Assembly: GCF_009068765.1 (NCBI RefSeq)
Contig: NZ_CP035534.1
Span: 1,860,001-1,924,000, forward strand
From: Sulfurimonas hydrogeniphila
Lineage (GTDB): Bacteria; Campylobacterota; Campylobacteria; Campylobacterales; Sulfurimonadaceae
Length of the DNA stretch: 64,000 nucleotides
Reading direction: 5' to 3'
Positions 39,032-61,282 of this stretch are shown here, in pieces (within the stretch, counting starts at the first letter, position 1; each line of letters begins with the position of its first letter). A program made the translations under genes and the position numbers. A model generated the notes under the pieces. The model did no database searches, was not told the DNA's origin, and saw only the letters and a list, made by a program, of their open reading frames with translations.

Positions 39032-41908
39032 TTAAAACTCTTTTATAACTTTAAAATCACCTGATTCATACGAATATACCTTCTTCGCTTTTTTGTCAAT
39101 GATAACAGGTCGTATCCACTCATTTAAAATAAACTCTTTGGCCACCGAATTTTCAACCGCCTTGCCCACTGCTTCCAAAGGGGCTTCCATGTAGGTGAGC
39201 AGTCTTACCGGTTCGTGATAGGCTTTACCCTCCAGCATAACAGATTGCGTAGGAAGTCCTATTTTAAGGTCACCGTAATTACCGTTAAAAACCCCGACTT
39301 TGGCAACAATATTGTGGTAGACTTTGGAACCTGCTCCATAAACGGCATTGTCTACCGTAGAAAAATAGTGTTCCATGTTGATCCACTCACCTACAATAAG
39401 AGGTCCGTTGAAAATTTTTGTCAGAATATCCGCATTTTCATTATCCAAAGAAGCCTCATACGAGTGCATAAAGAGTCTGTTTTTAAATGCCATATGTTTT
39501 ATAGAACTTCTTGGACCGGCAAAAACACCCATATTTCCTGCCAATCCCCACTCCGGCCTTGGTTCTGACCAGTCCATTGATTTTACAATGATATCTTCCT
39601 GGGTATTTGTATACGGCAACTGGGTGATTCTCTCCTGGCGCGAAATTTTTGAAGCTTCTTCAAAATCCTTCATAACTTTTGTAAATTTTGTCATCTCTTC
39701 TTGCGTTAGGATATCTGTATCATAAAACTTTATCTCATCTGTACTCGTTACATGTAAAGCCGGCATAAACTTGACATCATCCGGAATGACAATCCCTTTT
39801 TGGGCAATGGCCTCTCTTACATCTTGCGAGTTGGCTATCATACAAAGAGCTCTGTTGTTTGGCAAACTGCTGCTCCCGCCACATGCGCCACAGTCAAGTG
39901 CCGACTCAAACGGATTGTTGTCCGAAACACTTTGGTGTCCACAGAGAATGACGAACTCGGCAAAATTATCCACTTGGCCTATCATCATTAAAAAACTGTA
40001 CAGATATTCTACTTTCTCTTCAAGAGTAAATCCGACCATTTTGAGTTTGTTCTTCTGATACTCATAATCTTTTCGTGTTATTTTATACTTTGTGCGCAGT
40101 TTTTCCAGCAACTCTTTTGGAATATCCAGTGACAACTCTTCTTCAAAAACCAAATGATCGCGAATGGCCTGAATCTCTTCTGCCGTGTACTCCTGCGATG
40201 CACTGTTTTTCAAAGCTTCTACAATCACATATCTGTGCATTTTATTGACATACATTTCTATCTCTTGATCTGAGAGTTTGTTCAGAGTATATGTGGTTTT
40301 AGGTTTTTGTGCCTTAAAGCCGGACAAAAACCTGTTTGTTTTTCTTGGAGAAAATGTTTTTCCAAAAAGGTTTATTCCGAAGATCCAGCCGATTGCCTCT
40401 ACCATTATATAAGGAGTATAAGGATTGTTTTTCAGATCACTTAAAACTTTTTTCGTAGTTTTGTTCATAATTTTTTTCGAACTGTACTCTTCATGCGCTT
40501 CTTTTGGCAGTTCAAATATAATATTGCCGGGTTTTACCACCGCCGGACATAAAAACTGTTCATGCGCCTTGTCAAACTCCACAAAGGCAATAGGAAAACC
40601 TAAAAAACCTCCTGCCCCGTATGTTACATAACTGCCTCTGCTCTCAAGAGACCTTCTCATCAGTTCCGAACGTACGTCCAGACAAAATGTGGCAGAAGCC
40701 AGAGGTCTCTGCCCATTAGCTGTTTGAGTCAGTTTCATCTCATCAATAAAAGTATGAATATAGCTGTCTTCAAGAGACTTCAGCCAGATATATCCCTCAT
40801 GGGAGCGTAATGTCTCCATGATTTTTGCCAACTCTGTCAAGGCAATCTCTTTATTGTTCAGCTGGGCACTTGAGAGGTGCACCTGCTTGGCATCCAGTTT
40901 GAGTTCATCCTGCACATAATTTTCCAAAATCTGCTCATAATTTTGATGCTCCTGTATAGCATCTATATATTTGCCGGGCAGATCCCCTTTTGCCTGCAGT
41001 ATTTTCAAAATGACGCAGGCACTGTTTTTTTGCACAAAAGAGTCCAGCAGTTCAAAGTTCTTGATTTGTCTGTGCTGAAGGTAGGCAAGCTCAAAATAGA
41101 GTCTGATAGCCATATAGTCCATCAGTGATGACGGATACTCCTGCTGTGAAAAATAGTCAGGATCCTCGGAACGGTACTTTATAAACCCTGCCCATCCGTG
41201 CAGTTTTAAAATATGCGCCAGTAGATACTGCTCAACATTTTTCACTTTCAGCTTTTGAAGGGTCTCATTTACAAAAGATTCGGAATCCTTGGCATAGTCA
41301 AAGTTTTCATACAGTTTGAATGTTTCAAACATTCCCAGTTCTCTGTTTGGCATAGTGATGGTTGTCTGTTCTTCATCCAAAAACCTGGTGATATACTCAA
41401 TAATATCTTTTTCTATCATCTCTTTGTCATCACGATCAAAAAGAATATCATTGATCTCATAGAGTGTCATATGCTTTGTCAGTTTTTCTATCCACTTTTC
41501 TTTATTGTGATAGAAAAACTTTTCATCAAGATATGCCAACAGATCTTCATCAATTTCATGTTCGTTTAAATCTGCAGTGCTTCTAAGACTGTTCCATTTC
41601 GGATTGACTTCTATCAGACATTTTTTTGCCAGATCATAATGTTCTTGCAATCCGTCACTTTTGAGTATCTCTTTTAAGTTTGCTTCGAGCAAATCAGAAT
41701 TGATTTTGCCTTCTTTGTAAAGATTCAGATAATACGACGGCTGCATGTAAACATTCCCGCCAAAGATACTCTGCGCCTTGGCCACTCCCTCTTTAAAATG
41801 GAGATGTTCAAAACCTTTTAAAGGGTTGTGATGAATAAATGCACCGATTGGCCAGTAATGGGGTACCGTTGATTTGACAGCATCAAGTTTTTGCATGATT
41901 GTACTCAT
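39032..41908 (-). CDS. dabA: DabA, inorganic carbon uptake subunit (DUF2309)
   Basis: A 958-aa protein of the DUF2309/UPF0753 family. The beta-carbonic-anhydrase-like zinc site is complete: Cys409 and Asp411 (FCLDVRSE), His658 (LCGHQS) and Cys673 (DCGACGG); the 2- and 15-residue spacings match the characterised Halothiobacillus protein. With DabB it forms an energy-coupled system that converts CO2 to bicarbonate vectorially and accumulates it in the cytoplasm. It overlaps the upstream small membrane protein by 4 nt. One TTACATGTAA motif is at 39748. Confidence 0.9.
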   Translation of the reverse strand: MSTIMQKLDAVKSTVPHYWPIGAFIHHNPLKGFEHLHFKEGVAKAQSIFGGNVYMQPSYYLNLYKEGKINSDLLEANLKEILKSDGLQEHYDLAKKCLIEVNPKWNSLRSTADLNEHEIDEDLLAYLDEKFFYHNKEKWIEKLTKHMTLYEINDILFDRDDKEMIEKDIIEYITRFLDEEQTTITMPNRELGMFETFKLYENFDYAKDSESFVNETLQKLKVKNVEQYLLAHILKLHGWAGFIKYRSEDPDYFSQQEYPSSLMDYMAIRLYFELAYLQHRQIKNFELLDSFVQKNSACVILKILQAKGDLPGKYIDAIQEHQNYEQILENYVQDELKLDAKQVHLSSAQLNNKEIALTELAKIMETLRSHEGYIWLKSLEDSYIHTFIDEMKLTQTANGQRPLASATFCLDVRSELMRRSLESRGSYVTYGAGGFLGFPIAFVEFDKAHEQFLCPAVVKPGNIIFELPKEAHEEYSSKKIMNKTTKKVLSDLKNNPYTPYIMVEAIGWIFGINLFGKTFSPRKTNRFLSGFKAQKPKTTYTLNKLSDQEIEMYVNKMHRYVIVEALKNSASQEYTAEEIQAIRDHLVFEEELSLDIPKELLEKLRTKYKITRKDYEYQKNKLKMVGFTLEEKVEYLYSFLMMIGQVDNFAEFVILCGHQSVSDNNPFESALDCGACGGSSSLPNNRALCMIANSQDVREAIAQKGIVIPDDVKFMPALHVTSTDEIKFYDTDILTQEEMTKFTKVMKDFEEASKISRQERITQLPYTNTQEDIIVKSMDWSEPRPEWGLAGNMGVFAGPRSSIKHMAFKNRLFMHSYEASLDNENADILTKIFNGPLIVGEWINMEHYFSTVDNAVYGAGSKVYHNIVAKVGVFNGNYGDLKIGLPTQSVMLEGKAYHEPVRLLTYMEAPLEAVGKAVENSVAKEFILNEWIRPVIIDKKAKKVYSYESGDFKVIKEF

Positions 41909-45392: not shown

Positions 45393-45962
45393 ATGGCAAA
45401 CCAAGGTCCTGCGTATTATTCACCATATCCTGCGGCTACGTATGAAGGTGTAATAACACCACCAGAAGGAAAAGCACTTTTATTAGAAGATGTGGTAGAT
45501 GAAGAAACGGCAATGAGAGAAATTGCAAAACAGATGTTGACAAAAGAAAATGCAACAATTTTCCCCGGTCCACAAGTACTTTACGCATGGAGCGATGAAG
45601 CAAAAAGAAAAGCAACTCTTATCAAAGAGATGGCAGAAGTTCTGAATGCGAACATGATTCCAATGTATGACTACAGACCAAAATATCCAAAAATTGATGC
45701 TGAAGTTGAGATCAATCCAAATCATCCAAACTTGACGATTTGGGAAAACAAAATCAAAGCAGCAATTTTTATCGGTGTTCACTGTCATTATGCAAATGTT
45801 GCATTAAAGATTGTTAGAGCAGAAACAGACTGTTACACTATAGCAATGTGTGCTTTATCCGGACATGAAGATGCAATGGCTACTATTAGAGACCAACATG
45901 CTTCTGATCTTGAAAAGTTCATCAAAATAGCTAAAGAAGTTAAATCAGAGTTGGGAGTATAA
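45393..45962 (+). CDS. porD: PorD: delta subunit of five-subunit oxidoreductase (operon 1)
   Basis: A 189-aa soluble protein with conserved core IFPGPQVLYAWSDEAK, MYDYRPKYPKI, INPNHPNL and IFIGVHCHYANVALKIVR. No cysteine cluster motif is present. Databases often label such proteins as a carbon monoxide dehydrogenase beta-like family, but here the neighbours show it is the D subunit of a 2-oxoacid:ferredoxin oxidoreductase. Ribosome site AGGAGAAC. It lies 59 nt after porE and 4 nt before porA. Confidence 0.7.
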   Translation: MANQGPAYYSPYPAATYEGVITPPEGKALLLEDVVDEETAMREIAKQMLTKENATIFPGPQVLYAWSDEAKRKATLIKEMAEVLNANMIPMYDYRPKYPKIDAEVEINPNHPNLTIWENKIKAAIFIGVHCHYANVALKIVRAETDCYTIAMCALSGHEDAMATIRDQHASDLEKFIKIAKEVKSELGV

Positions 45963-45966
45963 AACA

Positions 45967-47169
45967 ATGAGTAAACGAAGTGATATGACAAACACACACA
46001 ACTGGTCTGGACAAAAATTAGTTTCAACAGACTATTTGCTTTTCGAAGCTCCTAGAGAGAAACACTTCATGACTGGTTCTGAAGTTTTAAAAGAAGCAAT
46101 GAAAAGATGTACGGTAGATGCCTCGGTATCCTACCCAATTACACCGCAGTCAGAAGCAGCACACCTTATCGGTGAATTATGGGCTGAAGGGTATGTCGGT
46201 ACTTATTTTAGAGGGGAAAACGAATTTGGTGTAATGTCTGAAGTTGCAGGCTGTGCAATGGCAGGCGCCAGAACAGTGACAACAACTTCCGGACCGGGAA
46301 CACTCAGAGCGATGGAAAACTTTCCTCAGTGGTCTGGAACAAGAATCCCCTGTCAACTGGTTTTAATGGCCCGTGGTATTAACTCGCCACTGACTATTCA
46401 ACCTGACAACCTGGAAGTTTCTTTTATGCTTGAAACCGGATGTATGATTTGGTATGCTGAAAATGTTCAAGAACTTTTCGATATGTCAATTGCAGCATTT
46501 ACAGTAGCTGAAAAGCCTGATGTACATGTTCCGATTATTACAGTTGTTGACGGTTTCTTTGTATCACATACAAGAGAGGCAGTTATGCTTCCGGCTGATG
46601 ATATAGCATTAGAGCCGTATGATCCGTACAGAGCACCGTTGCCTCCGATTGATTCTGAAACACCTCCGGGACGTTTCTTAAGAGATCCTTTTGTAATGAA
46701 GTCTAACTATATTTCGTATGCAACACACGCTTCTTGGCAGTGGGAAGTACGATCAGCGGTAGAGCGTTCACGCCCTTATGCAGAGCATTACTTGAAAGGT
46801 CTTATTCACATTACCGGTGAAGAAGATGCAGAAATTGCATTCGTTACATGCGGAACGGCATCAAACCAGGCAAAAGAAGCACACAGAGAGCTTATGAAAC
46901 TTGGTATCAAAACAAAAGTTATCAAGCTAAGAACAATCAGACCTTTCCCTGCGAAAGAACTTCTTGCAGCTGTTGAAGGTATCAAACACATATTTGTACC
47001 TGAATTCAATGTTGTCGGATGGCTGGAAAAAGAAGTAAGAAAAGAACTTTACAACAAGTGTGAAGCAGACATTGTCGGCGGACCGAGAGTCGCTGGTGGT
47101 ATGAGTATGCCTGCTGAAGCAATTATTGCGGAAGTAATGGAAAAAATCAACCCGGGAAAAGGAGCATAA
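45967..47169 (+). CDS. porA: PorA: alpha subunit, pyruvate:ferredoxin oxidoreductase (operon 1)
   Basis: A 400-aa alpha subunit. The pyrimidine-binding domain signature YPITPQSEAAHLIGELWAEG (about 57-76), the ENEFGVMSEVAGCAMAGARTVTTTSGPGTL region and a C-terminal transketolase-like domain (TCGTASNQAKEAHREL to VEGIKHIFVPEFN) are all present. With the beta subunit it forms the thiamine-diphosphate active site that carboxylates acetyl-CoA to pyruvate in the reductive TCA cycle. The pyruvate rather than 2-oxoglutarate assignment rests on gene order only. Confidence 0.75.
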   Translation: MSKRSDMTNTHNWSGQKLVSTDYLLFEAPREKHFMTGSEVLKEAMKRCTVDASVSYPITPQSEAAHLIGELWAEGYVGTYFRGENEFGVMSEVAGCAMAGARTVTTTSGPGTLRAMENFPQWSGTRIPCQLVLMARGINSPLTIQPDNLEVSFMLETGCMIWYAENVQELFDMSIAAFTVAEKPDVHVPIITVVDGFFVSHTREAVMLPADDIALEPYDPYRAPLPPIDSETPPGRFLRDPFVMKSNYISYATHASWQWEVRSAVERSRPYAEHYLKGLIHITGEEDAEIAFVTCGTASNQAKEAHRELMKLGIKTKVIKLRTIRPFPAKELLAAVEGIKHIFVPEFNVVGWLEKEVRKELYNKCEADIVGGPRVAGGMSMPAEAIIAEVMEKINPGKGA

Positions 47170-47170
47170 G

Positions 47171-48040
47171 ATGGCATTAGATATCTATAAAATAAATCCA
47201 GAATTTCGTGATATTATGCCTCAAGAGATTATAGATCTTGAGGAAAAAGCTACATGGTCAGTTAATAGAGACACACCACGTGGTATCAAAGAACTTCCTG
47301 ACACAAAAGAGTTGCTTGAAGAGCATTCACTCTGTGCCGGTTGTCCTGAAGCGGCTGCTCTGAGATATGTATTATCTGCACTGCCAAAACCGGAAGATAC
47401 TATTATTGTAAACTCTACGGGTTGTACATCTTTAATGTTCCCGCATATCGCGCTTCATACTGTGCACTCACTTTTTGGTAACCAAAATGCGGTTGCATCA
47501 GGAATCAAAAGAGTGCTTGACTGGAGATTTCCGGATATTGAGAAAGATGTTGTTGTTTTAGCCGGAGACGGTGCTACTGTTGATATCGGTCTTGACTATA
47601 CACTTCAGTCTTTCTTTAGACAGGAAAATATCACTACTATCTGTTTTGATAATGAAGTCTATGCAAATACCGGTGGACAGGAGTCTGGTGCTACAGCCAA
47701 AGGACAGGTCTTTAAAATGGCGCCTCTTGGTAAAAAGTTTGACAAAGTTCCTATGTGGGAATTGGCAACAACTTCAGGATGTCACTACTCTGTAAACATG
47801 ACCGCTTCTGCTCCAAAAGCAGTTGCCAAAGCAGTCAGAGAAGCGATCTTGGTTGCAAGAGAAATCGGACCGACTTTCCTTAATATTTACACACCGTGTA
47901 TTCTTGAAATCGGTTTAAGTGCAAATGAAGGCCTTGGTGAGATGAAAGATCAGGATAAAGACAGATTTGCATCGTACAAATATGTTTCACCTGAAGCAGA
48001 AGAGTTTTTGAAAAAATGTAAAGAAGAAGGGCGTATATAA
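47171..48040 (+). CDS. porB: PorB: beta subunit, thiamine-diphosphate binding (operon 1)
   Basis: A 289-aa subunit. The TPP/Mg motif is GDGATVDIGLDYTLQSFFRQ through CFDNEVYANTGGQ. Cluster-binding cysteines are CAGC (about 56-59), the Cys in NSTGCTSLMF and PC in IYTPCILE. Full family length. The stop and the next start overlap by one base. Confidence 0.8.
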   Translation: MALDIYKINPEFRDIMPQEIIDLEEKATWSVNRDTPRGIKELPDTKELLEEHSLCAGCPEAAALRYVLSALPKPEDTIIVNSTGCTSLMFPHIALHTVHSLFGNQNAVASGIKRVLDWRFPDIEKDVVVLAGDGATVDIGLDYTLQSFFRQENITTICFDNEVYANTGGQESGATAKGQVFKMAPLGKKFDKVPMWELATTSGCHYSVNMTASAPKAVAKAVREAILVAREIGPTFLNIYTPCILEIGLSANEGLGEMKDQDKDRFASYKYVSPEAEEFLKKCKEEGRI

Positions 48041-48741
48041 TGGCAAAAGATTCAATAAAAATCAGAATGCCTGGCCTTGGCGGCCAAGGCGCGGTAACAG
48101 CAGCACACATTGCTGCTACAGCTGCAGATACAGAAGGTTACTATGCTGTATCAAATCCGTTTTTTGGTGCTGAAAAGAGAATGGCACCATCTGAAAGTTA
48201 TGCAAGAATAGGGACAGTGCCTATTTATGACAGAGGGGAAGTTATTTACCCTGATATCATTATGATTTTTCACCCGCAGGTTATTACTATGGGTAAATCA
48301 TACACAATGCCTTTTTATGCCGGTATCAAAGAAAACGGCCTTGTAATCATCAACAGTGACAGAGATCTTTTAACTGATGATGATAAAAAAACATTGAGTG
48401 ATTTGAATGTAAAAGTGCTTACAAAAGACTTTACTCAGTTTGCTATTGATATGGCGGGAACTGAACTTGCAACAAACATGGCAATGCTGGGAGCTCTTTT
48501 TGGAGCTTTGGGCACTGTAAGCAAGCCGGCTATTGAAGAGGGAATCAAAGACAGATTCCTGAAAAAATATACGGCTTCCGGCGGTACGGCTACACTTGAC
48601 TCGGTTATTGAGAAAAAGTTCAAGAAAAAGAAAGAACTTATTCAAAAAAATCTCAATACTGCTTCAGCAGCATTTGACTTGACAGTTGATTGGTGTAAAG
48701 AAGTCGGATTTGAACAGATTTTAGAATCTCCAAGAAAATAG
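48040..48741 (+). CDS. porG: PorG: gamma subunit (operon 1)
   Basis: A 233-aa gamma subunit with GLGGQGAVTAAHIAATAADTEG near the N-terminus and FFGAEKRMAPSESYARIG, both hallmarks of the POR gamma domain. It is the last gene of operon 1 and is followed by a strong terminator hairpin. Confidence 0.8.
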   Translation: MAKDSIKIRMPGLGGQGAVTAAHIAATAADTEGYYAVSNPFFGAEKRMAPSESYARIGTVPIYDRGEVIYPDIIMIFHPQVITMGKSYTMPFYAGIKENGLVIINSDRDLLTDDDKKTLSDLNVKVLTKDFTQFAIDMAGTELATNMAMLGALFGALGTVSKPAIEEGIKDRFLKKYTASGGTATLDSVIEKKFKKKKELIQKNLNTASAAFDLTVDWCKEVGFEQILESPRK

Positions 48742-48800: not shown

Positions 48801-48860
48801 ACTCCAGAACAATTTGTTCTATACAAACATAACTCCATATCATTAAAGGAAGATCCCATC

Positions 48861-49829
48861 ATACAGTCATTTATAATTACAGGATTTTTAGGTGTTGGTA
48901 AAACTACCATGCTTACAAATACTGTCAAAAAATATTTTAAAGATAAGAAAATAGCAATAGTTGTCAATGAATTTGGTGATGTAGGAGTTGACAGTAAGAT
49001 TCTTACAAATGTACACAGTGAGGTGCTTGAAATTTCCGAAGGGTGTATTTGCTGCAAATTAGCCCAGGAATTTGAAAGCGGTGTTACTGAAATTATCAGC
49101 AAATACAGTCCTGACATAATTTTTGTAGAAACCTCCGGTGCATCAGAACCTTTTCCGATTTTCCTCTCTTTGCAGAACCTCGGTATATCAATAGAGGGCA
49201 TTATATGTGTTGTCGATGCAAAAAACTTTGATACATACAAAGAGAACTCTACCGCAAAGTACCAGTTGGGCGGTTCAAATATTATCATACTCAATAAAGT
49301 CGATTTGGTAACACCTGCACAGCTTGAAGAAGTAAAAAAAGAGGTTATACAGATTAAAGAAGAGTATAACATTAAAAACAATCTCACAGGAGAGACGGTA
49401 TTTAATAACTATATAATTCATTATGCCCAGCAGGGTCTGGTAAACAAAGAGGTATTTGAAGGCGTTTATAAAATAGATGAAGTCATCGGCCTGGCAAAAG
49501 ACTACAAGCATCTTGATCATACCGGCAAAGACTCTATCACCCAAAAAGTAGCCTATCTCAAAGACAATGTAACATTTAATGATATAGACCAGCTCCTCAG
49601 TGCCCTTCCAAAGAGTATCTACAGGACAAAAGGTATTTTAAAAGTGACTGATGTCGCCAATCCTATATTTATCAATTATTCCTTTGGTGATGCCAGCTAT
49701 GAAGAGTTACCGGAGTATAAAGAAAAATCACTCTTAATCTTTATCGGTGAGAGCATAGAAGATGATATAAAACTACTCAGTCAAAAATTTCCTTTTTTAG
49801 TTCTTCCCCAATTCAGTATAAATAAGTAA
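48861..49829 (+). CDS. G3E-family (CobW/COG0523) GTPase with non-standard start
   Basis: The first ATG (48909) lies inside the nucleotide-binding P-loop GFLGVGKTT, so translation must begin upstream. The frame is open back to 48753, but promoter and AAAGGAAG ribosome site place the start at ATA 48861 (or ATC 48858), giving MQSFIITGFLGVGKTT. Other family motifs are VNEFGDVGVD, the metal-binding CICC (EGCICCKL), ETSGASEP and NKVD. About 322 aa, with a CobW C-terminal domain. Such GTPases insert metals or guard metal homeostasis; it sits alone between the two oxidoreductase operons. Confidence 0.75.
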   Translation: MQSFIITGFLGVGKTTMLTNTVKKYFKDKKIAIVVNEFGDVGVDSKILTNVHSEVLEISEGCICCKLAQEFESGVTEIISKYSPDIIFVETSGASEPFPIFLSLQNLGISIEGIICVVDAKNFDTYKENSTAKYQLGGSNIIILNKVDLVTPAQLEEVKKEVIQIKEEYNIKNNLTGETVFNNYIIHYAQQGLVNKEVFEGVYKIDEVIGLAKDYKHLDHTGKDSITQKVAYLKDNVTFNDIDQLLSALPKSIYRTKGILKVTDVANPIFINYSFGDASYEELPEYKEKSLLIFIGESIEDDIKLLSQKFPFLVLPQFSINK

Positions 49830-49838: not shown

Positions 49839-50192
49839 TGTAAATTCTACACACCTTTCTCTATGCTCTCTCTCCAAACTCCCTGCAGATACTAAAATTC
49901 CAATAGCGTCTACAGGGGAAATAGGCGAAAAAGTTACAGAATTTTTCCAAAAAATTAATCTTAATAAATTAAATAATTTTTTTATGTTTACTTTAAGAAT
50001 AATAGTAAAGAGAAATTATATCCTCTGTATCCTCCTATATGAGGATCTCTGTTTTCCCTGCTTATTTGGAATCCTTATCTTATAAATAATAATATAAAAT
50101 GCTAATAATAATAATTCGCAAATTCAACTAGATGAAGGAAGATAGTCTTAAGATTAAAATATAGTTACTAAGCTTAACTGCGTGTTAGGGCA

Positions 50193-50213
50193 TTTCGATG
50201 TAATTTATCGAAA
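50193..50213 (+). promoter_or_regulatory. Leader hairpin upstream of forD
   Basis: TTTCGAT and ATCGAAA arms around a 7-nt loop, followed by CTTTTTC, 35 nt before the forD ATG. It looks like a weak attenuator or 5' stabilising hairpin in the leader. Confidence 0.35.
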
Positions 50214-50247
50214 CTTTTTCGTATTCGTACTAAATAAGGAGGTAACA

Positions 50248-50961
50248 ATGTTAAAAAAAGTAACAGAAGGTCCGGCTGGGTATATGCCTCAATCGGCACC
50301 ATATATGGGAGTTGAACTTGCACCTGAAGGGCAGGCTTTGCTTTATGGAAATAAAGTAAGTGAAGAAGAGGCTATGAGAGATGCAGCAAGAGCATTGCTG
50401 ACTCGAGATAACCCGACAATTTTCCCTGGTCCACAAGTATTATGGGACTGGAAAGATGATGTAGCTGCAAAAGCAGAAGCGCTTTTAGAGCTGGCGTCTG
50501 AAATTCCAAACTGTAAAATTATTCCAATGCCGGATTACAGACCAAAGTATCCAAAAATCGATGTGAAGGCGGAGATTAATCCTAATCACCCTAACCTGAC
50601 GATTTTGGATAACAAGATCAAAGCGTGTGTTTTTGTCGGTGTACACTGTCACTATGCAAATCTTACTCTTAGAATGATACGTGCAGGTACTGACTGCTAC
50701 ACTGTAGCATTATGTGCCTATATGGGTCATGAAGAGGCTATGGCATCAATCAGAGACCTTCATGCAGACGATATTCACAAATTTAAAGAAATTGTGATTG
50801 AAGAAAGAAACAAACTAGGCATTGAGTGGGAAACTACTTTACCACCTGAAAATCCATCTTTACCTAAAGAAGATTTGACTACATTATCACCTGCTGATTA
50901 TGGTGAGTACAGAAGTCTCATCATGACAAGAAAAGGTGAACATGTTACTGAAGTTGAATAA
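50248..50961 (+). CDS. forD: ForD: delta subunit of five-subunit oxidoreductase (operon 2)
   Basis: ATG 50248 has a perfect AGGAGG at 8 nt; an ATG 66 nt upstream overlaps the leader hairpin. The 237-aa protein shares with the operon-1 copy the core TIFPGPQVLWDWKDD, MPDYRPKYPKI, INPNHPNLTILDNKIKACVF and GVHCHYANLTLRMIR. It has about 45 extra residues at the C-terminus (after NKLGIEW) that may be specific to this enzyme. First gene of a D-A-B-G-E set like H. thermophilus forDABGE, a 2-oxoglutarate:ferredoxin oxidoreductase. Confidence 0.7.
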   Translation: MLKKVTEGPAGYMPQSAPYMGVELAPEGQALLYGNKVSEEEAMRDAARALLTRDNPTIFPGPQVLWDWKDDVAAKAEALLELASEIPNCKIIPMPDYRPKYPKIDVKAEINPNHPNLTILDNKIKACVFVGVHCHYANLTLRMIRAGTDCYTVALCAYMGHEEAMASIRDLHADDIHKFKEIVIEERNKLGIEWETTLPPENPSLPKEDLTTLSPADYGEYRSLIMTRKGEHVTEVE

Positions 50962-50973
50962 AGGAGATAATCA

Positions 50974-52158
50974 ATGAGTCCAAATCCAGAAAAAAAATTA
51001 GAAAAAACATTAGTAGATATTAACTATCTGTTAAAAGAAGCTCCGAGAGAAAAGCACTTTATCACAGGTGCGCAGGCAATGGCAGAAGCTGTTAAAAGAG
51101 CAAGTGTTGATATGGCAATCGCCTACCCTATTACACCACAGTCAGAGGTAATGCACCTTGTAGGTGACATATATGCGCAAGGCCACATTAAAGAGTACTA
51201 CAGAGCTGAAGAAGAGCTTGGTACCATGTCTGCTATTGCAGGTGCTGCAAGAGCGGGTGTACGTCTTTTTACAGCTACTTCAGGACCGGGACTGCTTCGC
51301 GGTTTGGAAGCTATTGTTTCTTGGCCAGGTCACCGTGTTCCGGCTGTCCTTGGAATATTGACACGTGTTATCAATGCACCGTTGTCTATTCAGCCTGATA
51401 ATATCGAAATGGCATATATGATGCATTGTGGTGCCGTAATGTTACATGCTGAAAACCAGCAGGACACATTTGACTTCACTTTGGCAGCATTTGCTATTGC
51501 TGAAAAAGTTGATGTATACATTCCTGTTGCAGTAGCTACTGAAGGTTTCTTCGTAACACATGCAAAAGGTTATGTTGACATGACTCCGGAAGATATGGCA
51601 CTGACTGAATTTGATCCGGTAGCTGCACCGGTTCCTGCGATGGACAATGAAACTCCACCTGCAAGAATCCAGCGTGATGCTCCTGTTCAAAAGTCAAACT
51701 TTATGTCTTACCTGATTCATGCTGTATGGCAACAGGAAATCTGGGATTCAAACAAACGTGCAATGAAATATATCTATGAATATCTTGGCGGACCGATTGA
51801 AGTGAAAAATCCTGAGTCTGAAGTATTCCTTATCGCTTCGGGTTGTGCAGCTGCACAGGCAAGAGAAGCATGGAGATATGCACAGGAAGCAGGTTTAAGC
51901 GTTGGTTTAATCAAAGTAAGAGCTATCAGACCGTTCCCGATTGATGAAATCAGAGATACAGTTAAAAATGCTAAATCTATCATCGTCCCTGAACACAATA
52001 TTATCGGCTGGTTATGTAAAGAAGTAAAAGCGGCGATTCCAAATGGCGGAATTGTTACAGAGGGACCAAGAGTATACGGTGGTATGACACTTCCGGTTGA
52101 GTTGATTATGAAAGAAATTCATAACTCACTTGGCTTAGAATACGACCTAAAACTATAA
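50974..52158 (+). CDS. forA: ForA: alpha subunit, 2-oxoglutarate:ferredoxin oxidoreductase (operon 2)
   Basis: A 394-aa alpha subunit aligned throughout with the operon-1 protein but clearly diverged: APREKHFITGAQAMAEAVKR, YPITPQSEVMHLVGDIY, EEELGTMSAIAGAARAG, SGPGLLRG, SIQPDNIEMAYM and RAIRPFPIDEI. With ForB it makes 2-oxoglutarate from succinyl-CoA and CO2 in the reductive TCA cycle. Strong AAGGAGAT ribosome site. Substrate choice is by gene order, not by specificity residues. Confidence 0.72.
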   Translation: MSPNPEKKLEKTLVDINYLLKEAPREKHFITGAQAMAEAVKRASVDMAIAYPITPQSEVMHLVGDIYAQGHIKEYYRAEEELGTMSAIAGAARAGVRLFTATSGPGLLRGLEAIVSWPGHRVPAVLGILTRVINAPLSIQPDNIEMAYMMHCGAVMLHAENQQDTFDFTLAAFAIAEKVDVYIPVAVATEGFFVTHAKGYVDMTPEDMALTEFDPVAAPVPAMDNETPPARIQRDAPVQKSNFMSYLIHAVWQQEIWDSNKRAMKYIYEYLGGPIEVKNPESEVFLIASGCAAAQAREAWRYAQEAGLSVGLIKVRAIRPFPIDEIRDTVKNAKSIIVPEHNIIGWLCKEVKAAIPNGGIVTEGPRVYGGMTLPVELIMKEIHNSLGLEYDLKL

Positions 52159-52170
52159 AAAGGAGATAAA

Positions 52171-53079
52171 ATGAGTTTAAAATATATAACTCCGGCAGAG
52201 AGATTTAAAAAATATCTACCAAAAGATTATGTAGAGCTAGTTGACTACGGTCCGTTTGGAAAAACACAAGAAGAAGCCGGACCAGGTAATATGGGGCAGT
52301 TTAAAGAGCTCGTTGAAGAGCATCCGATGTGTTCTGGTTGTTGGATGGCATACTATATCAGACTGATTTTTGCTTCACTTCCAAATCCGGAAGATACAGT
52401 AACACTGGGTACAGCAGGTTGTGGCCGTTTGGCTATTTCTCAGGCTGCGGTACCGTTTATCTATGGTAACTACGGTGACCAAAATGCTATGGCATCAGGA
52501 TTGACACGTGCGTTCAGATTACGTTTCCCTGATAAAACAAAAGATGTTATTACTATTGCCGGTGACGGTGGTACTATGGATATCGGTTTCTCAATGACTA
52601 TGCACTCATGGATTCGTGGCGAAAAATTCACGACTATCATGCTTGACAATGAAGTTTATGGAAATACAGGCGGACAATCTTCTGGAATGTCTCCACAAGG
52701 TGCTGTTCTTAAAATGGCTCCAAAAGGAAAAGATTTCGGTAAAATGCCGGCAACAGAGCTTGCCAGAGCAGCCGGTTGTGTCTATACTGTAAGAATGTCT
52801 CCGACAAACATCAAAAAAGCGGCTAAGATTATCAGACGTGCAATCTTTGTTGCAAGAGAAGTCGGACCGACATTTATTCATGCATATACATCATGTAATA
52901 TCGAATATTCAATTCCTACGCATGAAGTGTTTGCTGATGCAAAAGCACAGGAAAAAGATCGTTTTACATTTGAAGAATACATGACTGATGAAGCAAAAGA
53001 AGTCATCGAACGTGTAGAAGCTGAAGAAAAAGCAGCAAGAATGGCAAGAAAAGCTCAAAAAACAGAGGCGGTAAATTAA
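52171..53079 (+). CDS. forB: ForB: beta subunit, thiamine-diphosphate binding (operon 2)
   Basis: A 302-aa subunit with TPP motif GDGGTMDIGFSMTMHSWIRG and LDNEVYGNTGGQSSGMSP, and cluster ligands CSGC, Cys in GTAGCGRLA, and YTSCNIEYS. Its N-terminus is about 15 residues longer and its C-terminus has a charged helical extension (VIERVEAEEKAARMARKAQK) missing in operon 1. AAGGAG ribosome site. Confidence 0.78.
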   Translation: MSLKYITPAERFKKYLPKDYVELVDYGPFGKTQEEAGPGNMGQFKELVEEHPMCSGCWMAYYIRLIFASLPNPEDTVTLGTAGCGRLAISQAAVPFIYGNYGDQNAMASGLTRAFRLRFPDKTKDVITIAGDGGTMDIGFSMTMHSWIRGEKFTTIMLDNEVYGNTGGQSSGMSPQGAVLKMAPKGKDFGKMPATELARAAGCVYTVRMSPTNIKKAAKIIRRAIFVAREVGPTFIHAYTSCNIEYSIPTHEVFADAKAQEKDRFTFEEYMTDEAKEVIERVEAEEKAARMARKAQKTEAVN

Positions 53080-53080
53080 T

Positions 53081-53791
53081 ATGGCTGATAAAACAAGAAA
53101 AAAAAGATATAACATACGTATTTCCGGATTAGGTGGACAAGGTGTTGTAACTACTGCTCACATCCTTGGTTCAACAATGGATAATGCAGGTCAATATGCA
53201 TCTTTGGTACCGTTTTTTGGTTCTGAAAAAAGAATGGCACCTGTTGAGGCTTATGTAAGAGCTTCAACAGAGCCGATTTATGAAGTTGGTGAAGTTGTAT
53301 ATCCTGATATTATCATGATTTACCACTCACAGGTTGTAACACACGGTAAGTCTTATACAATGCCGTTTTATACAGGTCTTAAGCCTGACAGTTTGATTAT
53401 CATCAACTCTGAAGTAAATGTACTTGATGAAGATGATGTAAAAGTTTTAAAAGACTTAAGAGCTACTGTTGTTCAGTTTGATGCAACAAAACTTGCACTT
53501 GATACGGCAGGAACAGAACTGGCAACAAATATGGCAATGATGGGTATGATGCTTGGACTTATAAACCTTGTCAGTATTGAAAACATTGAAACAGCGGTAA
53601 AAGAGAGATTCCTGGGAACATCATTTGTATCTTCAGGCGGTACAGCTATGCTTGACTCTGCAATAGAGAAAAAGTTTAAGAAAAAAGAAGAGTTACTCCA
53701 AAAAAATATGGATGTAATCAGCAAGACTTTTGAAATGGCAAATTCTATTGATTTGGATACTGCTGATTTAATTATTAAGTTCGACATATAA
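53081..53791 (+). CDS. forG: ForG: gamma subunit (operon 2)
   Basis: A 236-aa gamma subunit, with GLGGQGVVTTAHILGSTMDNAG, FFGSEKRMAPVEAYVRAS and the C-terminal SSGGTAMLDSAIEKKFKKKEE, matching the operon-1 gamma protein along its length. One base separates it from forB. Confidence 0.78.
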   Translation: MADKTRKKRYNIRISGLGGQGVVTTAHILGSTMDNAGQYASLVPFFGSEKRMAPVEAYVRASTEPIYEVGEVVYPDIIMIYHSQVVTHGKSYTMPFYTGLKPDSLIIINSEVNVLDEDDVKVLKDLRATVVQFDATKLALDTAGTELATNMAMMGMMLGLINLVSIENIETAVKERFLGTSFVSSGGTAMLDSAIEKKFKKKEELLQKNMDVISKTFEMANSIDLDTADLIIKFDI

Positions 53792-53802
53792 AAGGATAAT
53801 AA

Positions 53803-54030
53803 ATGTATTATGTAGCAAAAGTTAATTCTGACATGTGTGCCGAGTACAAGTGTAATACCTGTACTTTGTATTGCCCGGAAGCCAATACACTCATGTTTGA
53901 TAAAAGCGGAAATACATCTTGGGTTGATGTAGACAGATGTAAAGGGTGTGCATTATGTGTGTACGTATGTACTGATATGCTCAATCGTGATTGTATTACG
54001 ATGGAAATGCCTAACGTCGAAGCAGTATAA
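53803..54030 (+). CDS. forE: ForE: 75-aa 2x[4Fe-4S] ferredoxin-like subunit (operon 2)
   Basis: Differs from the 75-aa subunit at 45106 only at residue 9 (Ser for Ala), with about nine nucleotide changes in 228, whereas the other four subunit pairs are far more diverged. Same cysteine pattern (CNTCTLYC, CKGCALCVYVC). An AAAGGAT ribosome site precedes it. Being last in operon 2 and first in operon 1, it bears out the E-DABG / DABG-E symmetry. Confidence 0.72.
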   Translation: MYYVAKVNSDMCAEYKCNTCTLYCPEANTLMFDKSGNTSWVDVDRCKGCALCVYVCTDMLNRDCITMEMPNVEAV

Positions 54031-54150
54031 TTTCTGTATATATAGGTCATCCTTTAGGGATGGCTTATACCCTCTTAAAATTTAAAAAATCTTTTATTAT
54101 TTATCCAATTCCTTATAAAAAGTTACTTTTAGACAATAATGTTAAAATAA

Positions 54151-54156
54151 TATAAT
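54151..54156 (+). promoter_or_regulatory. Probable promoter of trigger-factor-like gene
   Basis: TATAAT 21 nt before the GTG start, within a 146-nt gap. A hairpin GTCATCC/GGGATGGC at about 54046 lies after forE and may end that operon. Confidence 0.45.
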
Positions 54157-54176: not shown

Positions 54177-55433
54177 GTGGAAGTCTCAGTAAAAAAAATC
54201 GATGATATTAACTTTATCTTGAGTGGTACGATCGAAAACAATATAATAGAAAACAAAGTGGCAGAATTTAAAGAAAAATTAACACAAAAGACAAATAACG
54301 ATACGTCAAAAAGTGAAAATATTGAGCAGGAAGCAGCAGGCGAAGTTTTCAAAGAATTCATCAATACCGGCATCAAAAAAGCAAATATAGACATAGATAC
54401 TATTTTGGGACAACCACTCCTGAAAAAATATGAACAGCAGGAGAACAATGTCTACTTCGAGGTCGCGCTCTCTACAAGTCCTCAAATCAATACAGATATA
54501 GACTATAACGATATCATCCCCGACTTCACAAAGCCAAAAGCCGATCCTGCAGCAGTGGAGGCCAAACTTCAGGAGTTTGCACAACAGCAGGCTCCCTTTA
54601 CCAAAATAGACAAACCGCGGGCAGTAAAAGCAGGTGATGTTGCTGTCATCGACTTTGCCGGTTCTATTGATGGAAAACCGTTTGAAGGCGGCAGTGCCGA
54701 AAAATTCAACCTGAAAATCGGATCCCAGTCATTTATTCCGGGTTTTGAAGAACAGATAATAGGAATGGAGTATGGCGAGGAGAGAACCATTACCGTTACC
54801 TTTCCGGCAGATTATCAGGCAGAAGATCTCGCAGGGAAAGAGACTAAATTTGATGTCAAACTTCATGAAATTCAACAGCAGGAAGCCCAAACACCCGATG
54901 ATGCTTTTGCCCAAAAAATTCTAAGCGATCCCTCGGCAACACTTGACACACTCAAAGAAAAATTTGCAGACCAGATTATATCCGAAGAACTTTCACAACT
55001 GTATATGCAGGAGCTTAAGCCAAAAATAATAAATGCTTTAAATGAAAAATTTGATTTCACACTGCCTGAGAATATCGTCGAGCAGGAGATAGATGCAAAA
55101 GTGCGCGAAAAAACAAAAAGCTACACAGAAGAAGAGCATAAACAGTTCCTTGAAGACAAAGAGAAATTTCTTCAGCTAAGAGAATCTGTACGTGAAGATG
55201 CCAAAAGAGTTGTAAAAACTGCCCTTATCGTTGAAGCTTTGGCAAAAAAAGAAGGAATAGATGTTCATATACAGGAAGTGCATGCCGCACTTGGCTATCA
55301 GGCAATGATGACAGGCCAGGATGCCCAGGAACTTGTAAAGTACTATGAAGAGAACAATCTTATGACATCTGCAAAAATGGGTCTTACCGAAGATAAACTT
55401 TTTGGAAAACTCCTGGGGTTTCATAATCAGTAA
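54177..55433 (+). CDS. Trigger-factor-like protein lacking the ribosome-docking motif
   Basis: A 418-aa protein with a GTG start after AAAAGG. It has trigger factor order: N-domain (about 1-110, MEVSVKKIDDINFILSGTIE), FKBP-type prolyl isomerase domain (about 145-240, GDVAVIDFAGSIDGKPFEGG and FIPGFEEQIIGM), and helical C-domain. But where canonical proteins have GFRxGKVP followed by 10 more residues, this one has only a short polar stretch (TQKTNNDTSKSENIEQE). It should therefore not bind L23 at the ribosome exit in the standard way and is probably a paralogue of tig acting as a free chaperone or isomerase. Confidence 0.75.
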   Translation: MEVSVKKIDDINFILSGTIENNIIENKVAEFKEKLTQKTNNDTSKSENIEQEAAGEVFKEFINTGIKKANIDIDTILGQPLLKKYEQQENNVYFEVALSTSPQINTDIDYNDIIPDFTKPKADPAAVEAKLQEFAQQQAPFTKIDKPRAVKAGDVAVIDFAGSIDGKPFEGGSAEKFNLKIGSQSFIPGFEEQIIGMEYGEERTITVTFPADYQAEDLAGKETKFDVKLHEIQQQEAQTPDDAFAQKILSDPSATLDTLKEKFADQIISEELSQLYMQELKPKIINALNEKFDFTLPENIVEQEIDAKVREKTKSYTEEEHKQFLEDKEKFLQLRESVREDAKRVVKTALIVEALAKKEGIDVHIQEVHAALGYQAMMTGQDAQELVKYYEENNLMTSAKMGLTEDKLFGKLLGFHNQ

Positions 55434-55440
55434 AGATCCA

Positions 55441-56085
55441 ATGATTCAAAAAATCTGGGACTGGGCTGATAAAAACAATATATCCGATTTAGAGTGGATA
55501 GCGCATGATTCCTATCTCAAAGGTGGCTATTTCAGAGGACTTCCGAGAGACAAAGAATCATTGCTCGGACTGCAGGAGCTCAATCTTCTTGGCAGTCAGC
55601 TTTCAGACTTGCCGCCGGAAATAGCCTGTCTTAAGAATTTAAAAAAACTTTATATGCTGGGAAACCGGTTGAGGAAACTGCCCCCGGAGACAGGCCTTCT
55701 GACACAGCTTGAAGAACTTTATCTTGCAGGGAATCAATTGGAAGAACTGCCAAAAGAGATAGGGTCTTTAAAAAATCTGAAACTGCTTCTTTTGCAGGAA
55801 AACAGACTCTCAGGCATACCAAAAGAGATCGCTTCGCTCAAAAATTTAAAAACATTGGAACTGGGCGCAAATCAGCTTTCATCCCTTCCTGCTGAAATCG
55901 GACAATTGACAAATTTAACCAAGCTGACTTTCTGGAAGAATCGGCTGAGTACCCTGCCTGACGAGATTGAAAATCTGCTAAACCTGGAAGAGCTGGACTT
56001 CACTTACAACAGGCTTTCATTAACCCAAGGGCATGCCCTGTGGCTGGACAGGCTTATGCAAAAAGGCTGTTGTGTTTCTATATAA
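55441..56085 (+). CDS. Leucine-rich repeat protein
   Basis: A 214-aa protein starting at ATG 55441, 8 nt after the preceding stop. A 40-residue N-terminal region (IWDWADKNNISDLEWIA) is followed by about seven 23-residue LRRs of the LxxLxLxxNxLxxLPxEI kind (LYMLGNRLRKLPPETG, LYLAGNQLEELPKEIG, LLLQENRLSGIPKEIA and so on). It has no signal peptide, so it is cytoplasmic and probably mediates protein contacts. Co-transcription with the trigger-factor-like gene is likely. Confidence 0.8.
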   Translation: MIQKIWDWADKNNISDLEWIAHDSYLKGGYFRGLPRDKESLLGLQELNLLGSQLSDLPPEIACLKNLKKLYMLGNRLRKLPPETGLLTQLEELYLAGNQLEELPKEIGSLKNLKLLLLQENRLSGIPKEIASLKNLKTLELGANQLSSLPAEIGQLTNLTKLTFWKNRLSTLPDEIENLLNLEELDFTYNRLSLTQGHALWLDRLMQKGCCVSI

Positions 56086-56353
56086 ACAGGTGACTCTTGT
56101 CAGGATTTTTTTCCTGATATTTGACAATATACGAACATTGCGCCACAGCTTTTTTATTCTCTTTTTCTATCTCTTTGAGCACATCTTCAAGCAAAGCTTT
56201 TGCAAGACCTTTTCCCGCCAGTTCTTGCGGTACAATAGTATGTGTCAAGTGCATCTTGCCATCCTGATCATCATATGTTATATAAGCCACATGTCCGTCT
56301 ATATGGTATTCGTATCTGCACTCATCTGGATTGTGAATTAAAGTATTTGACAT
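56078..56353 (-). CDS. YjdJ-type GNAT acetyltransferase
   Basis: A 91-aa minimal GNAT protein (N-acetyltransferase-like, COG2388 type): YHIDGHVAYITYDDQDGKMHL, then the acetyl-CoA binding loop PQELAGKGLAKALLEDVL, and a C-terminal CSYIVKYQEKNPD. Length fits the family. It overlaps the convergent LRR gene by 8 nt. Substrate unknown. Confidence 0.8.
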   Translation of the reverse strand: MSNTLIHNPDECRYEYHIDGHVAYITYDDQDGKMHLTHTIVPQELAGKGLAKALLEDVLKEIEKENKKAVAQCSYIVKYQEKNPDKSHLFI

Positions 56354-56534
56354 CTCTTTTCCTTTTTTTTCTATAATTTTATCATGCTAAATTTAAAAAG
56401 AAACTACCCTGTCAATTACATAAATTTCACAACCTTTATATAAGCCTAAGAAATGAAGATGTTTTCTTCTTTAACTTCAAATTACTGTAGTTTTATCTAA
56501 AATACAAAAAAAATTATTGTGAGGTACTGATTAT

Positions 56535-57125
56535 ATGGCTACTCAAGAAACAAAACGGTATATGGAAATGCAAATGCAGGAGCTTAAAGAAGCCTGTGCC
56601 GCAAATGAAGAAGAAAAAAATCCTGCTCCAAAAAAAGCAAACAACAATAGGGACAAAAATGCTGAAATTGCAAAACTCTATGAAGATGCAGCCGAGTATG
56701 AAGAAGATTTAAAAGGCTTTCAAGAAGAACTTGAAATAGTCAATGCAAATGAATTTAAAGATATTCCCGACTTGTTAAAAGAAAAATTCTCAACACAGGA
56801 GAGAGACTATGCACAGGAGATAAGAACTCTTTTGGAAGCTACATGGGCACACTATGTAAATGTGGAAAAAACACATCCTCAGGAGCAGCTTGATATTATA
56901 AAAACAACTGCGTTACATGAAATTGTCACAGCACTTGCCAAAGCCTACCCTGATTATGAAGGTGATTTTGAGTCAGATATCAAAGAGATACTTGTCAAGA
57001 GATGGGAAATGCTCATAGCAATCAAAAAAGAGCATATCAAAGAAGAGATAGCAGAAATCAAAATATTAGGTCTTAAGCCGAATTATGTCCAAAGAATCTA
57101 TAAACAGTTTCATGGCATAGAATAA
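56535..57125 (+). CDS. Soluble helical protein, unknown function
   Basis: A 196-aa acidic, almost wholly helical protein. An Asn/Lys/Glu-rich N-terminal segment (about 1-45) precedes coiled regions (DAAEYEEDLKGFQEELEIVNA) and a possible four-helix part. No motif recognised. The 181-nt gap before it is AT-rich without an obvious strong promoter. Confidence 0.6.
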   Translation: MATQETKRYMEMQMQELKEACAANEEEKNPAPKKANNNRDKNAEIAKLYEDAAEYEEDLKGFQEELEIVNANEFKDIPDLLKEKFSTQERDYAQEIRTLLEATWAHYVNVEKTHPQEQLDIIKTTALHEIVTALAKAYPDYEGDFESDIKEILVKRWEMLIAIKKEHIKEEIAEIKILGLKPNYVQRIYKQFHGIE

Positions 57126-57218
57126 GAAAATATGATGTAAGAGCAGTTTTTCGTTTTTTACACACTTTTGTCATGTTTCACAAAAAGAGTTCTCATATCT
57201 GCATGGATACTGTTAACT

Positions 57219-57228
57219 TTGCTATAAT
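57219..57228 (+). promoter_or_regulatory. Promoter, extended -10
   Basis: TTTGCTATAAT matches the local sigma-70 form; TATAAT is at 57223-57228, 37 nt before the next ATG, with AGGAG in between. Confidence 0.6.
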
Positions 57229-57264
57229 TATTCTATAGACGATATTATTTCAGGAGAATTTGTT

Positions 57265-57567
57265 ATGGACGCAGTAACGAAAGAAAAATTAGAGAAAGTT
57301 GTTACACTGGTAAACAAAGCGATGGTAGATCCGGATATAGATATTGATTATTGTATACCCGGTGTTGAAACAACGGTAAAAGAGTGTGATGTATCAGAAA
57401 CCCCTTTTGTATTAGTTACCTATGTTTTGGGTGATTACAACAAACATACACGTAAAATTCATTTGGATGCAACCTTATTGCGGGAAACACCCGAGGAGAT
57501 CGCCAACAGAATAACATTTTCCATTGAAGAGTTCAAAGGTGAAATAGATTCTGTAGAGATGGGCTGA
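57265..57567 (+). CDS. Small soluble protein, unknown function
   Basis: A 100-aa acidic protein, MDAVTKEKLEKVVTLVNKAM at the N-terminus and an alpha/beta pattern after it (FVLVTYVLGDYNKHTRKIHLD). Two cysteines (DYCIPG, KECDVS). It has its own promoter and terminator, so it is a monocistronic unit. No family recognised. Confidence 0.65.
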   Translation: MDAVTKEKLEKVVTLVNKAMVDPDIDIDYCIPGVETTVKECDVSETPFVLVTYVLGDYNKHTRKIHLDATLLRETPEEIANRITFSIEEFKGEIDSVEMG

Positions 57568-59872: not shown

Positions 59873-61282
59873 CATAAGTATCTACACAACTCAAAAAAGC
59901 AAAGAAAGCGGAATAGATATTGCATAAGATTTTAAAAAACAAGAGAGTTTATGCAATGGAAGAGCGTTTAAAAAAAAAGATATATGAGACTGGTAAAAAG
60001 TCATATGAATCATAAACAACACAGTACCAATGGATTAAACCTGCTACAAAAGACTGAAGGATTTTCACAAGCACAAAGTGCTTGGAGATTTTACAATAAT
60101 GAGCATGTAGATATAGAGTCACTCAATGAGCCAATGCTTACAAGAGGGATTAAAACTATTAATAAAAGCAGTGATGAATATATACTTGTAGCCCATGACT
60201 GGTCACTCATAAATTATAAAAACCATACGGCAAAAACAGATTGTATACGAAAACGCAGAAGCAATGTAAATAATGCTTCATCAAGAGGATATGAGTTGCA
60301 AAGTTCCCTTGCAATTGAGAGCAGCAGCGGCAAACCAATCCTTCCCTTGGTACAGAACCTAAAGACACAAGATAAAGTGCTCTCAAGCTATAATCCTACA
60401 ATGAAGAGTCATCTTACCCATCTCGGTGAATTAACACAAAGAATAGCTTATATCAATCAATCCCTCAACATACAAAAGAAAATTGTACATGTAATTGACA
60501 GAGAAGCAGACAGTGCGGGGTTTTTCAGAGGACTGCAAAAAGAGGATTTATATATAGTACGAGCATTAGACAATGTCAAAGTCAGGTATGAAGATGAAGA
60601 TATTACCCAAAAAGAGTTGTCCAAAAAAATGGATAAAGGCAAATATGTAAAAACTATACAGTATCAAAATAAAAAAGTAAAAATTTATGTTAATACGGTA
60701 GATATACTTATAACAAGAGACAGCTATCAAAAGACAGATACGCCACAAGGTAAAACAATAAAACAAAAAGTAAAAGGCAAGCCAATAAAAAACAGATTTA
60801 TAGTCCAAAGACTCATAGATGAGAAGAACAATACAGTTGCTACCTGGCTTCTGTTAAGCAATCTTCCAAAAGATGTTGATATAACAAGGATAGGATTGTG
60901 GTATTATTACAGATGGAATATAGAAACGTATTTTAAACTGTTAAAAAGCTCAGGGTTTAATTTGGAAAAATGGCAGCAAGAGAGTGCACAGGCTATATTT
61001 AAACGCTTGTTTGTTGCCTCTTATGCCTGTTTGCTTGTATGGGAAATTGAACATACAAATAGTAAAAACATGCTGGCAATTAGAAAGTTTTTAGTTCGAT
61101 TAAGCGGGAGATTGGTAGCAAGAAAGAAGATATCTACCTCTCCGGCTCTGTTAGCAGGTTTATGGAACTTCTTCTCTGCTATGGATATGCTTGAACTTTA
61201 TGATATTGAAGAACTCCATAGCATTAAAAAAGAACTCAATGACTTTATGCAGATGGAGTTTTAAGTTGTGTAGATACTTATG
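59873..61282 (+). mobile_element. IS4-family-like insertion sequence, copy 3 (complete, 1410 bp)
   Basis: CATAAGTATCTACACAACT termini, with direct repeats ACTGAAGT at 59865-59872 and 61283-61290. Opposite orientation to copies 1 and 2. The target is the reverse complement of that used by copy 1, at the same place in the repeat. Confidence 0.9.
59984..61264 (+). CDS. IS4-family transposase, copy 3
   Basis: A 426-aa DDE transposase, identical to copy 1. Catalytic residues are as for that copy: HDWS, IDREAD and the E in WNIETYFKLLKSS. The identity of three copies over their whole length implies recent transposition. Confidence 0.88.
   Translation: MRLVKSHMNHKQHSTNGLNLLQKTEGFSQAQSAWRFYNNEHVDIESLNEPMLTRGIKTINKSSDEYILVAHDWSLINYKNHTAKTDCIRKRRSNVNNASSRGYELQSSLAIESSSGKPILPLVQNLKTQDKVLSSYNPTMKSHLTHLGELTQRIAYINQSLNIQKKIVHVIDREADSAGFFRGLQKEDLYIVRALDNVKVRYEDEDITQKELSKKMDKGKYVKTIQYQNKKVKIYVNTVDILITRDSYQKTDTPQGKTIKQKVKGKPIKNRFIVQRLIDEKNNTVATWLLLSNLPKDVDITRIGLWYYYRWNIETYFKLLKSSGFNLEKWQQESAQAIFKRLFVASYACLLVWEIEHTNSKNMLAIRKFLVRLSGRLVARKKISTSPALLAGLWNFFSAMDMLELYDIEELHSIKKELNDFMQMEF

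Follow-up and report, generated by a model that had tools for sequence, protein, structure and literature searches.

A trigger factor paralogue without the ribosome-docking loop nearly always shares genomes with five-subunit ferredoxin oxidoreductases, suggesting a dedicated helper

What does a trigger factor (TF) do without the loop that docks it on the ribosome, and is there a functional tie to the five-subunit ferredoxin oxidoreductase (OFOR) operon behind which its gene lies? The window, i.e., the whole stretch of 64,000 nucleotides of Sulfurimonas hydrogeniphila DNA analyzed here, raises this question through tigB (Table 1), which a sequence-only reading had proposed to encode a dedicated folding or assembly factor with an LRR protein as partner. 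Sequence comparisons suggest that TigB, which occurs in some sulfur-oxidizing bacteria and nearly always shares its genome with an unusual, probably oxygen-tolerant OFOR that fixes carbon, may indeed be a dedicated helper. The reading that we prefer, at a probability of about 0.45, is that TigB is a ribosome-detached chaperone and prolyl isomerase that would take its clients from five-subunit OFORs.

Table 1. Features of the tigB region (positions in the window)
Feature	Position	Strand	Remarks
Second five-subunit-type OFOR operon (E, alpha, beta, gamma)	45393..48741	+	
CobW-type GTPase gene, between both OFOR operons	48858..49829	+	likely ATC start
Five-subunit OFOR, E subunit (PF02552)	50182..50961	+	
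Five-subunit OFOR, alpha subunit	50974..52158	+	
Five-subunit OFOR, beta subunit	52171..53079	+	
Five-subunit OFOR, gamma subunit (PF01558)	53081..53791	+	
forD, five-subunit OFOR, ferredoxin-like delta subunit	53803..54030	+	named from cysteine pattern only
tigB, TF paralogue without GFRxGxxP loop	54177..55433	+	418 aa, GTG start behind AAGGA
Polar linker KTNNDTSKSE, residues 38-47, in place of the canonical TF ribosome-docking loop	54288..54317	+	alignment; low pLDDT in model
LRR protein	55441..56085	+	214 aa, conserved N-cap around WIEHDSY..GGYF; directly after tigB in 27/35 loci
hyp56535, conserved protein, family unassigned	56535..57125	+	recurrent tigB neighbour, diverges with tigB-LRR

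TigB is a TF homologue that passes the equivalog test of NCBIfam TIGR00115 (tig) with 278.8 bits over residues 47-412 (cut-off 180.2), and the Pfam matches to FKBP_C (68.3 bits) and Trigger_C (90.6 bits) both pass as well, as expected from the FKBP and C-terminal domains assigned to it earlier. Its nearest named relatives are Sulfurimonas proteins. Judged by the GFRxGxxP motif, TigB falls outside the canonical ribosome-associated TF class. Neither the window protein nor any of the 32 rows that share its clade has GxRxG in its first 100 residues, and four more TigBs, from G585, G607 and G608, likewise lack it. In the window protein, the 10-residue linker stands in for the 23 residues that surround the motif in canonical TFs and is thus 13 residues shorter, which matches the claim that the loop and about ten residues after it had given way to a short polar stretch. 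Across the TigB rows, this segment has 7-23 residues (mean 10.7) compared to 23 in canonical TFs, and its net charge averages −2.9 (range −6 to 0) in the 33 TigB rows versus +3.0 (range 1 to 5) in the 49 motif-bearing rows. Because the tree rows were classed as loop-less or motif-bearing by the motif itself, the resulting 33/33 and 49/49 are no independent test of motif loss; moreover, row L027 (G202) begins at residue 84, with the motif region outside its sequence, and L162 (1 residue) was excluded from trees and counts. L079 (G612) was rejected as a TigB, being an N-truncated fragment of canonical type with 75% identity to the best motif-bearing row versus 58% to the best TigB.

The host genome, a single contig of 2.34 Mb, also encodes a canonical TF. 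As the sequence-only reading had anticipated for a paralogue, a canonical tig (L001, 1453-2799) lies next to clpP, with lspA on the other side, and contains the motif as GFRKGKVP. Because this gene is the sole match in a genome-wide Trigger_N search, the genome has one ribosome-type TF and one paralogue, TigB, and the possibility that TigB is the only tig in the genome is ruled out.

Trigger_N of Pfam has no match in TigB, but the N-domain is present in the predicted structure. In the AlphaFold2 model (mean pLDDT 87.3, pTM 0.67), residues 1-105 align with the solved N-domain of E. coli TF (1oms; Z 11.3, 102 residues, 3.1 Å), and helix 21-38 joins the long helix 43-68 via a short low-confidence linker. 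Because the N-domain fold matches 1oms, the predicted loss is local to the loop. The whole model aligns with E. coli TF 1w26 with Z 21.2 over 395 residues at an rmsd of 14.4 Å, which is probably due to differently set domains, and with the TF entry 3gty with Z 18.4.

Which activities might TigB have kept? Ten positions assumed to belong to the FKBP site are retained in 91-100% of the TigB rows. At nine positions, TigB has conserved residues unlike those in other TFs, with eight of these positions within residues 289-403 and the ninth at residue 11; the clade-specific residues in the C-terminal chaperone region would fit a changed substrate range. With the FKBP residues kept and these C-terminal residues specific to the clade, TigB would be expected to isomerize prolyl bonds and to hold a changed set of clients; with the docking loop gone and the positive charge reversed, it should be absent from the exit tunnel. 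A highly improbable alternative is that TigB still binds ribosomes by another surface, or pairs with canonical TF and modulates it. The N-domain fold is largely kept, while Myxococcus motif-less paralogues are described with a different or no N-domain in the available parts of Wan et al. (2024, PMC11559001), and loop-less TFs occur in tandem in G580, G581 and G608, both of which would suit this alternative; however, the entire clade lacks the docking motif and the positive charge that goes with it.

Independent of that sorting by motif is the result that all 33 motif-less rows fall into a single clade with support 100/100, which is recovered in 100% of 200 bootstrap trees and has no motif-bearing member; this careful tree replaced an earlier quick tree, and both yield a single loop-less clade. 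The clade nests within Sulfurovaceae tig; its sisters, rows L041 and L042, are motif-bearing tig genes beside clpP, and the two genomes that they come from both carry a five-subunit OFOR. The TigB of the f7 genome G327 lies among Sulfurimonas TigBs (support 80/95 for the closest pairing and 100/98 for the larger group), whereas the canonical tig of G327 does not nest among Sulfurimonas, which indicates transfer. According to the trees, TigB arose once as a duplicate of a Sulfurovaceae tig and then moved into Sulfurimonas and another Campylobacterales family. Pairwise comparisons point to strong purifying selection on TigB, with dN/dS of 0.038-0.058 in three of eight pairs, for which dS is already 1.5-2.6, and no ratio in the five pairs that are saturated. 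The single clade and the low dN/dS argue that motif loss reflects neither an error nor a pseudogene: a sequencing error or frameshift, raised earlier as what might hide the motif, is ruled out by its absence from the window protein, the 32 clade rows and the four further TigBs, and a pseudogene by the dN/dS values. Among the 228 genomes of the family, 26 encode TigB with 65-100% identity to the window copy and at least 496 bits; the best non-TigB match reaches 310 bits and 41%, and the four such next matches that were fetched are all motif-bearing. Two peculiarities surfaced among the tig genes collected. In G386, one contig has two copies of tig that score identically and are separated by 111 kb (C1 1187332-1188444 and 1298349-1299461), representing either the recent duplication of a large segment or an artefact of assembly, and a Sulfurovum-type tig lies on L060, a contig with the label Thaumarchaeota, by which this genome record is mislabelled or contaminated.

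As described in the sequence-only reading, tigB follows directly on the for operon, with forD ending 146 nt upstream. The ATG of the LRR gene lies 7 nt past the tigB stop codon. No terminator was found between forD and tigB; a promoter-like site lies just before tigB (54128-54156), as one of 17 found versus 10.3 expected (sd 3.4). The host genome has two further OFOR gamma genes beyond the window. The CobW-type gene has no ATG, GTG or TTG ahead of its Walker A motif, and an ATC sits behind AAGGA; at this position, 10 of 13 relatives have ATG, the close relatives L112 and L113 have ATC, and L170 has ATG one codon later. Because the ATC matches the ATG site of the relatives and no usual start precedes Walker A, the gene likely has a non-standard start codon. 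The carbon-fixation region is flanked by two genes identical in all 1281 bases and in opposite orientation (34521-35801 on the minus strand and 59984-61264 on the plus strand), which we take to be transposase-like; the latter copy is absent from this place in G102.

Is the adjacency of tigB and OFOR genes conserved? Neighbourhoods were counted at 35 loci, i.e., that in the window and 34 others. OFOR genes are close to tigB, with zero to three genes between, at 27 of these, including G085, in which they are inverted and lie beyond the LRR gene, and G087, in which only the delta subunit precedes the contig end. At six loci no OFOR genes are near tigB (G131, G007, G408, G559, G581 and G608), and two end at a contig edge (G202 and G580). 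In G131, G559, G581 and G608, which are draft genomes, TigB and a five-subunit OFOR are co-present on different contigs, which, with the caution that drafts call for, argues against linkage as the sole cause of the pairing. In four Sulfurovum-type genomes (G559, G580, G581 and G608), TigB lies beside nitrate-assimilation genes and not an OFOR operon. At the loci L181, L183 and L205 of three Sulfurovum-type genomes, narK-like, nirA-like and molybdopterin reductase genes lie on one side of tigB, and a fused PP2C-phosphatase/kinase gene and an AAA-M41 protease gene on the other.

These neighbourhoods bear on the idea that a mobile OFOR island carries tigB and the LRR gene along as passengers that are kept by linkage, which we consider quite improbable. 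The distribution is patchy, and the TigB of G327 that is nested among Sulfurimonas ones has OFOR genes beside it. Also, in 400-base steps, tigB-LRR-hyp56535 (window 54200-57300) has 72-86% nucleotide identity to G102 and G157, compared to 88-99% in the flanking steps with one exception at 78%, suggesting that this block may be an exchanged or fast-diverging cassette. Against mere passengers stand the strong purifying selection on TigB and its retention in the four genomes with OFOR genes elsewhere. Moreover, TigB derives from a Sulfurovaceae tig, whereas the alpha subunits of five-subunit OFORs are reported as closest to Aquificales (Molari et al., PMC10066037, in the available parts), so the two did not start as one unit.

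The proposal of an LRR partner is partly supported. The gene following tigB is a different one at eight of the 35 loci, which rules out the LRR protein as an obligate partner: it encodes a small Cys-containing protein in G327 and G408 (and, convergently, in G048), a second loop-less TF in G580, G581 and G608, a globin-like protein in G607 and NarK in G559. G180, which has no TigB-grade match, has an LRR match that is partial (51% over 113 residues). We also rejected the LRR protein as a secreted effector, since NCBIfam effector and internalin matches fall far short of their cut-offs and are due to shared repeats alone. The small Cys-containing family has no Pfam match and includes window 38618-38956 (minus strand), L128 8835-9128, L179 1252-1560 and L180 9162-9422; it is found near the large gene 39032-41908, presumably dabA-like. 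A second small family, of about 100 residues, recurs beside tigB loci, often in several copies (21 members at 10 of 28 loci, e.g., in L133, L135 and L122); its window member, hyp57265 (57265-57567), has no Pfam match.

The co-occurrence of TigB and five-subunit OFORs extends beyond their adjacency. The probe used was the OFOR E subunit, which detects either operon. Among the 228 genomes of the family, 24 have both, two TigB only, two OFOR only and 200 neither, with the E subunit in 26. An order-wide sample of 398 genomes, family members included, has five with both, none with only one of the two and 393 with neither; two of the five positives also belong to the family set, TigB-grade was defined as at least 488 bits (next best 418) by a line set after the scores had been seen, and weaker matches counted as canonical on the strength of their scores rather than by reading each one for the motif. 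Among 30 further genomes, drawn from other matches to the TigB protein, three have both, one of them Sulfurovum sp. AR, one has OFOR only and 26 have neither; five genomes picked for their tig or TigB matches, a biased choice, comprise three with both and two with OFOR only. In all, OFOR occurs without TigB in G152 (81% complete), G221 (89%), and G583, G584 and G601 (no completeness figure), and TigB without the E subunit in G007 (89%) and G202 (65%). Some draft genomes yielded only the pyruvate-type E subunit, and second-operon genes were seen in G126, G327, G580 and G582, not in G408. The genomes are related and not independent samples, and Fisher values are therefore only nominal; the search for TF duplicates covered the genome sets named above, while Aquificales are the reported source of such OFORs and Nitrospira another reported holder. 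Within this scope, TigB tracks five-subunit OFORs beyond adjacency and co-occurs with them across three families. The proposal of a dedicated factor thereby gains a conserved tie to the enzyme.

A shared oxygen-exposed lifestyle may, rather than a mechanism, pair these genes. In such a case, TigB would be a general ribosome-free chaperone of oxygen-exposed or stressed cells that belongs to the same oxygen-tolerance gene set as the OFORs with no special tie to them, a possibility that we regard as rather unlikely. A globin-like gene is among the next downstream genes at 14 of the 35 loci (the member scanned scored 19.7 bits with Bac_globin, below the cut-off of 21), TigB lies between nitrate-assimilation and kinase/phosphatase plus AAA-protease genes in G559, G581 and G608, and Myxococcus TF paralogues are stress-related (PMC11559001, in part), all of which would suit a general chaperone. 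By contrast, the OFOR genes close to tigB at 27 of 35 loci and the close co-occurrence across three families favour a specific tie.

We, therefore, return to TigB as a chaperone and prolyl isomerase for five-subunit OFORs. We suggest that a duplicated TF lost its ribosome anchor and would thereby have become a free cytosolic chaperone and prolyl isomerase. After its single origin from a Sulfurovaceae tig, it spread, often accompanied by an adjacent five-subunit OFOR operon. Away from the exit tunnel, TigB might escape the dosage limit on ribosome-bound TF, in analogy to TF overdose, which is relieved by deletion of the N-domain and partly by deletion of the motif (PMC11559001, in part). Co-occurrence and adjacency point to the subunits of five-subunit pyruvate and 2-oxoglutarate:ferredoxin oxidoreductases as the likeliest clients, which TigB may hold until or while complexes and Fe-S clusters are assembled in cells exposed to oxygen; the Sulfurimonas LRR protein would probably be a co-expressed adaptor. 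Three Myxococcus motif-less paralogues raised GAPDH refolding without preventing its aggregation (PMC11559001, in part), which argues against a holdase role; however, they lack the N-domain of TigB.

In organisms with a reductive TCA cycle, the usual suspect for keeping ferredoxin oxidoreductases working in oxygen is the extra subunit. If our reading is true, a chaperone detached from the ribosome and inherited along with the enzyme would add a second part to the answer. TigB also offers a natural experiment on a TF freed from the ribosome, with one loss event, many descendants (33 in the tree) and strong selection. SlyD, which acts with HypB in nickel-hydrogenase maturation, is an FKBP-type chaperone that serves one metalloenzyme alongside a GTPase; the parallel here is the CobW-type GTPase in the OFOR cluster, and TigB differs by having the whole TF architecture. 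A bolder and unlikely extension is that TigB is a dedicated maturation chaperone in a private OFOR assembly line, to which the CobW-type GTPase and interchangeable partners (the LRR protein, a small Cys protein or a second loop-less TF) would also belong and which would enable the reductive TCA cycle in oxygen in Campylobacterota; a TF would then have become client-specific by the cutting of its ribosome anchor.

How does TigB compare to known systems? The five-subunit OFORs (PFOR/OGOR) of Sulfurimonas pluma have been described as potentially more oxygen tolerant, and Sulfurovum AR is included in the OFOR synteny figure of that work; the words "trigger factor" and "chaperone" are absent from the available parts of its text (Molari et al., PMC10066037). 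Another report mentions five-subunit forms and, in the parts available, not TF (PMC12403661), and among the open-access papers listed by our searches, no title or abstract start linked TF with a five-subunit OFOR. For acidophiles, a single TF copy is reported (PMC10490939, in part).

TigB shares with canonical TF (tig; E. coli 1W26) the TIGR00115, FKBP_C and Trigger_C matches and the alignment of the whole model, and differs by the absent GFRxGxxP, the reversed charge at that site, the lack of a Trigger_N match and a location not beside clpP. It is closer to the motif-less TF paralogues in the available parts of Wan et al. (2024, PMC11559001), in which 367 of 390 multi-TF genomes have just one motif-bearing copy: as with TigB, these are second TFs in genomes that keep one motif-bearing TF, and they lack GxRxG in the first 100 residues. 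Three from Myxococcus did not co-sediment with ribosomes. Pulldown partners and phenotypes are given, with no dedicated client in sections 5, 7, 10 and 11, and the words Sulfurimonas, Sulfurovum and Campylobacter are absent from the main text, the data sets aside. Because TigB fits this published class, its kind is already known. However, the published paralogues are reported as significantly shorter, mostly by loss in the N-terminal domain, whereas TigB lacks the loop, with 13 residues fewer in that segment, but otherwise retains the N-domain fold in the model; it also has a single origin, spread horizontally and is tied to an enzyme operon. As far as our searches of the open-access literature show, what is new in TigB is that only the loop was lost while the N-domain stayed, that a single origin can be traced and that there is a tie to five-subunit OFORs.
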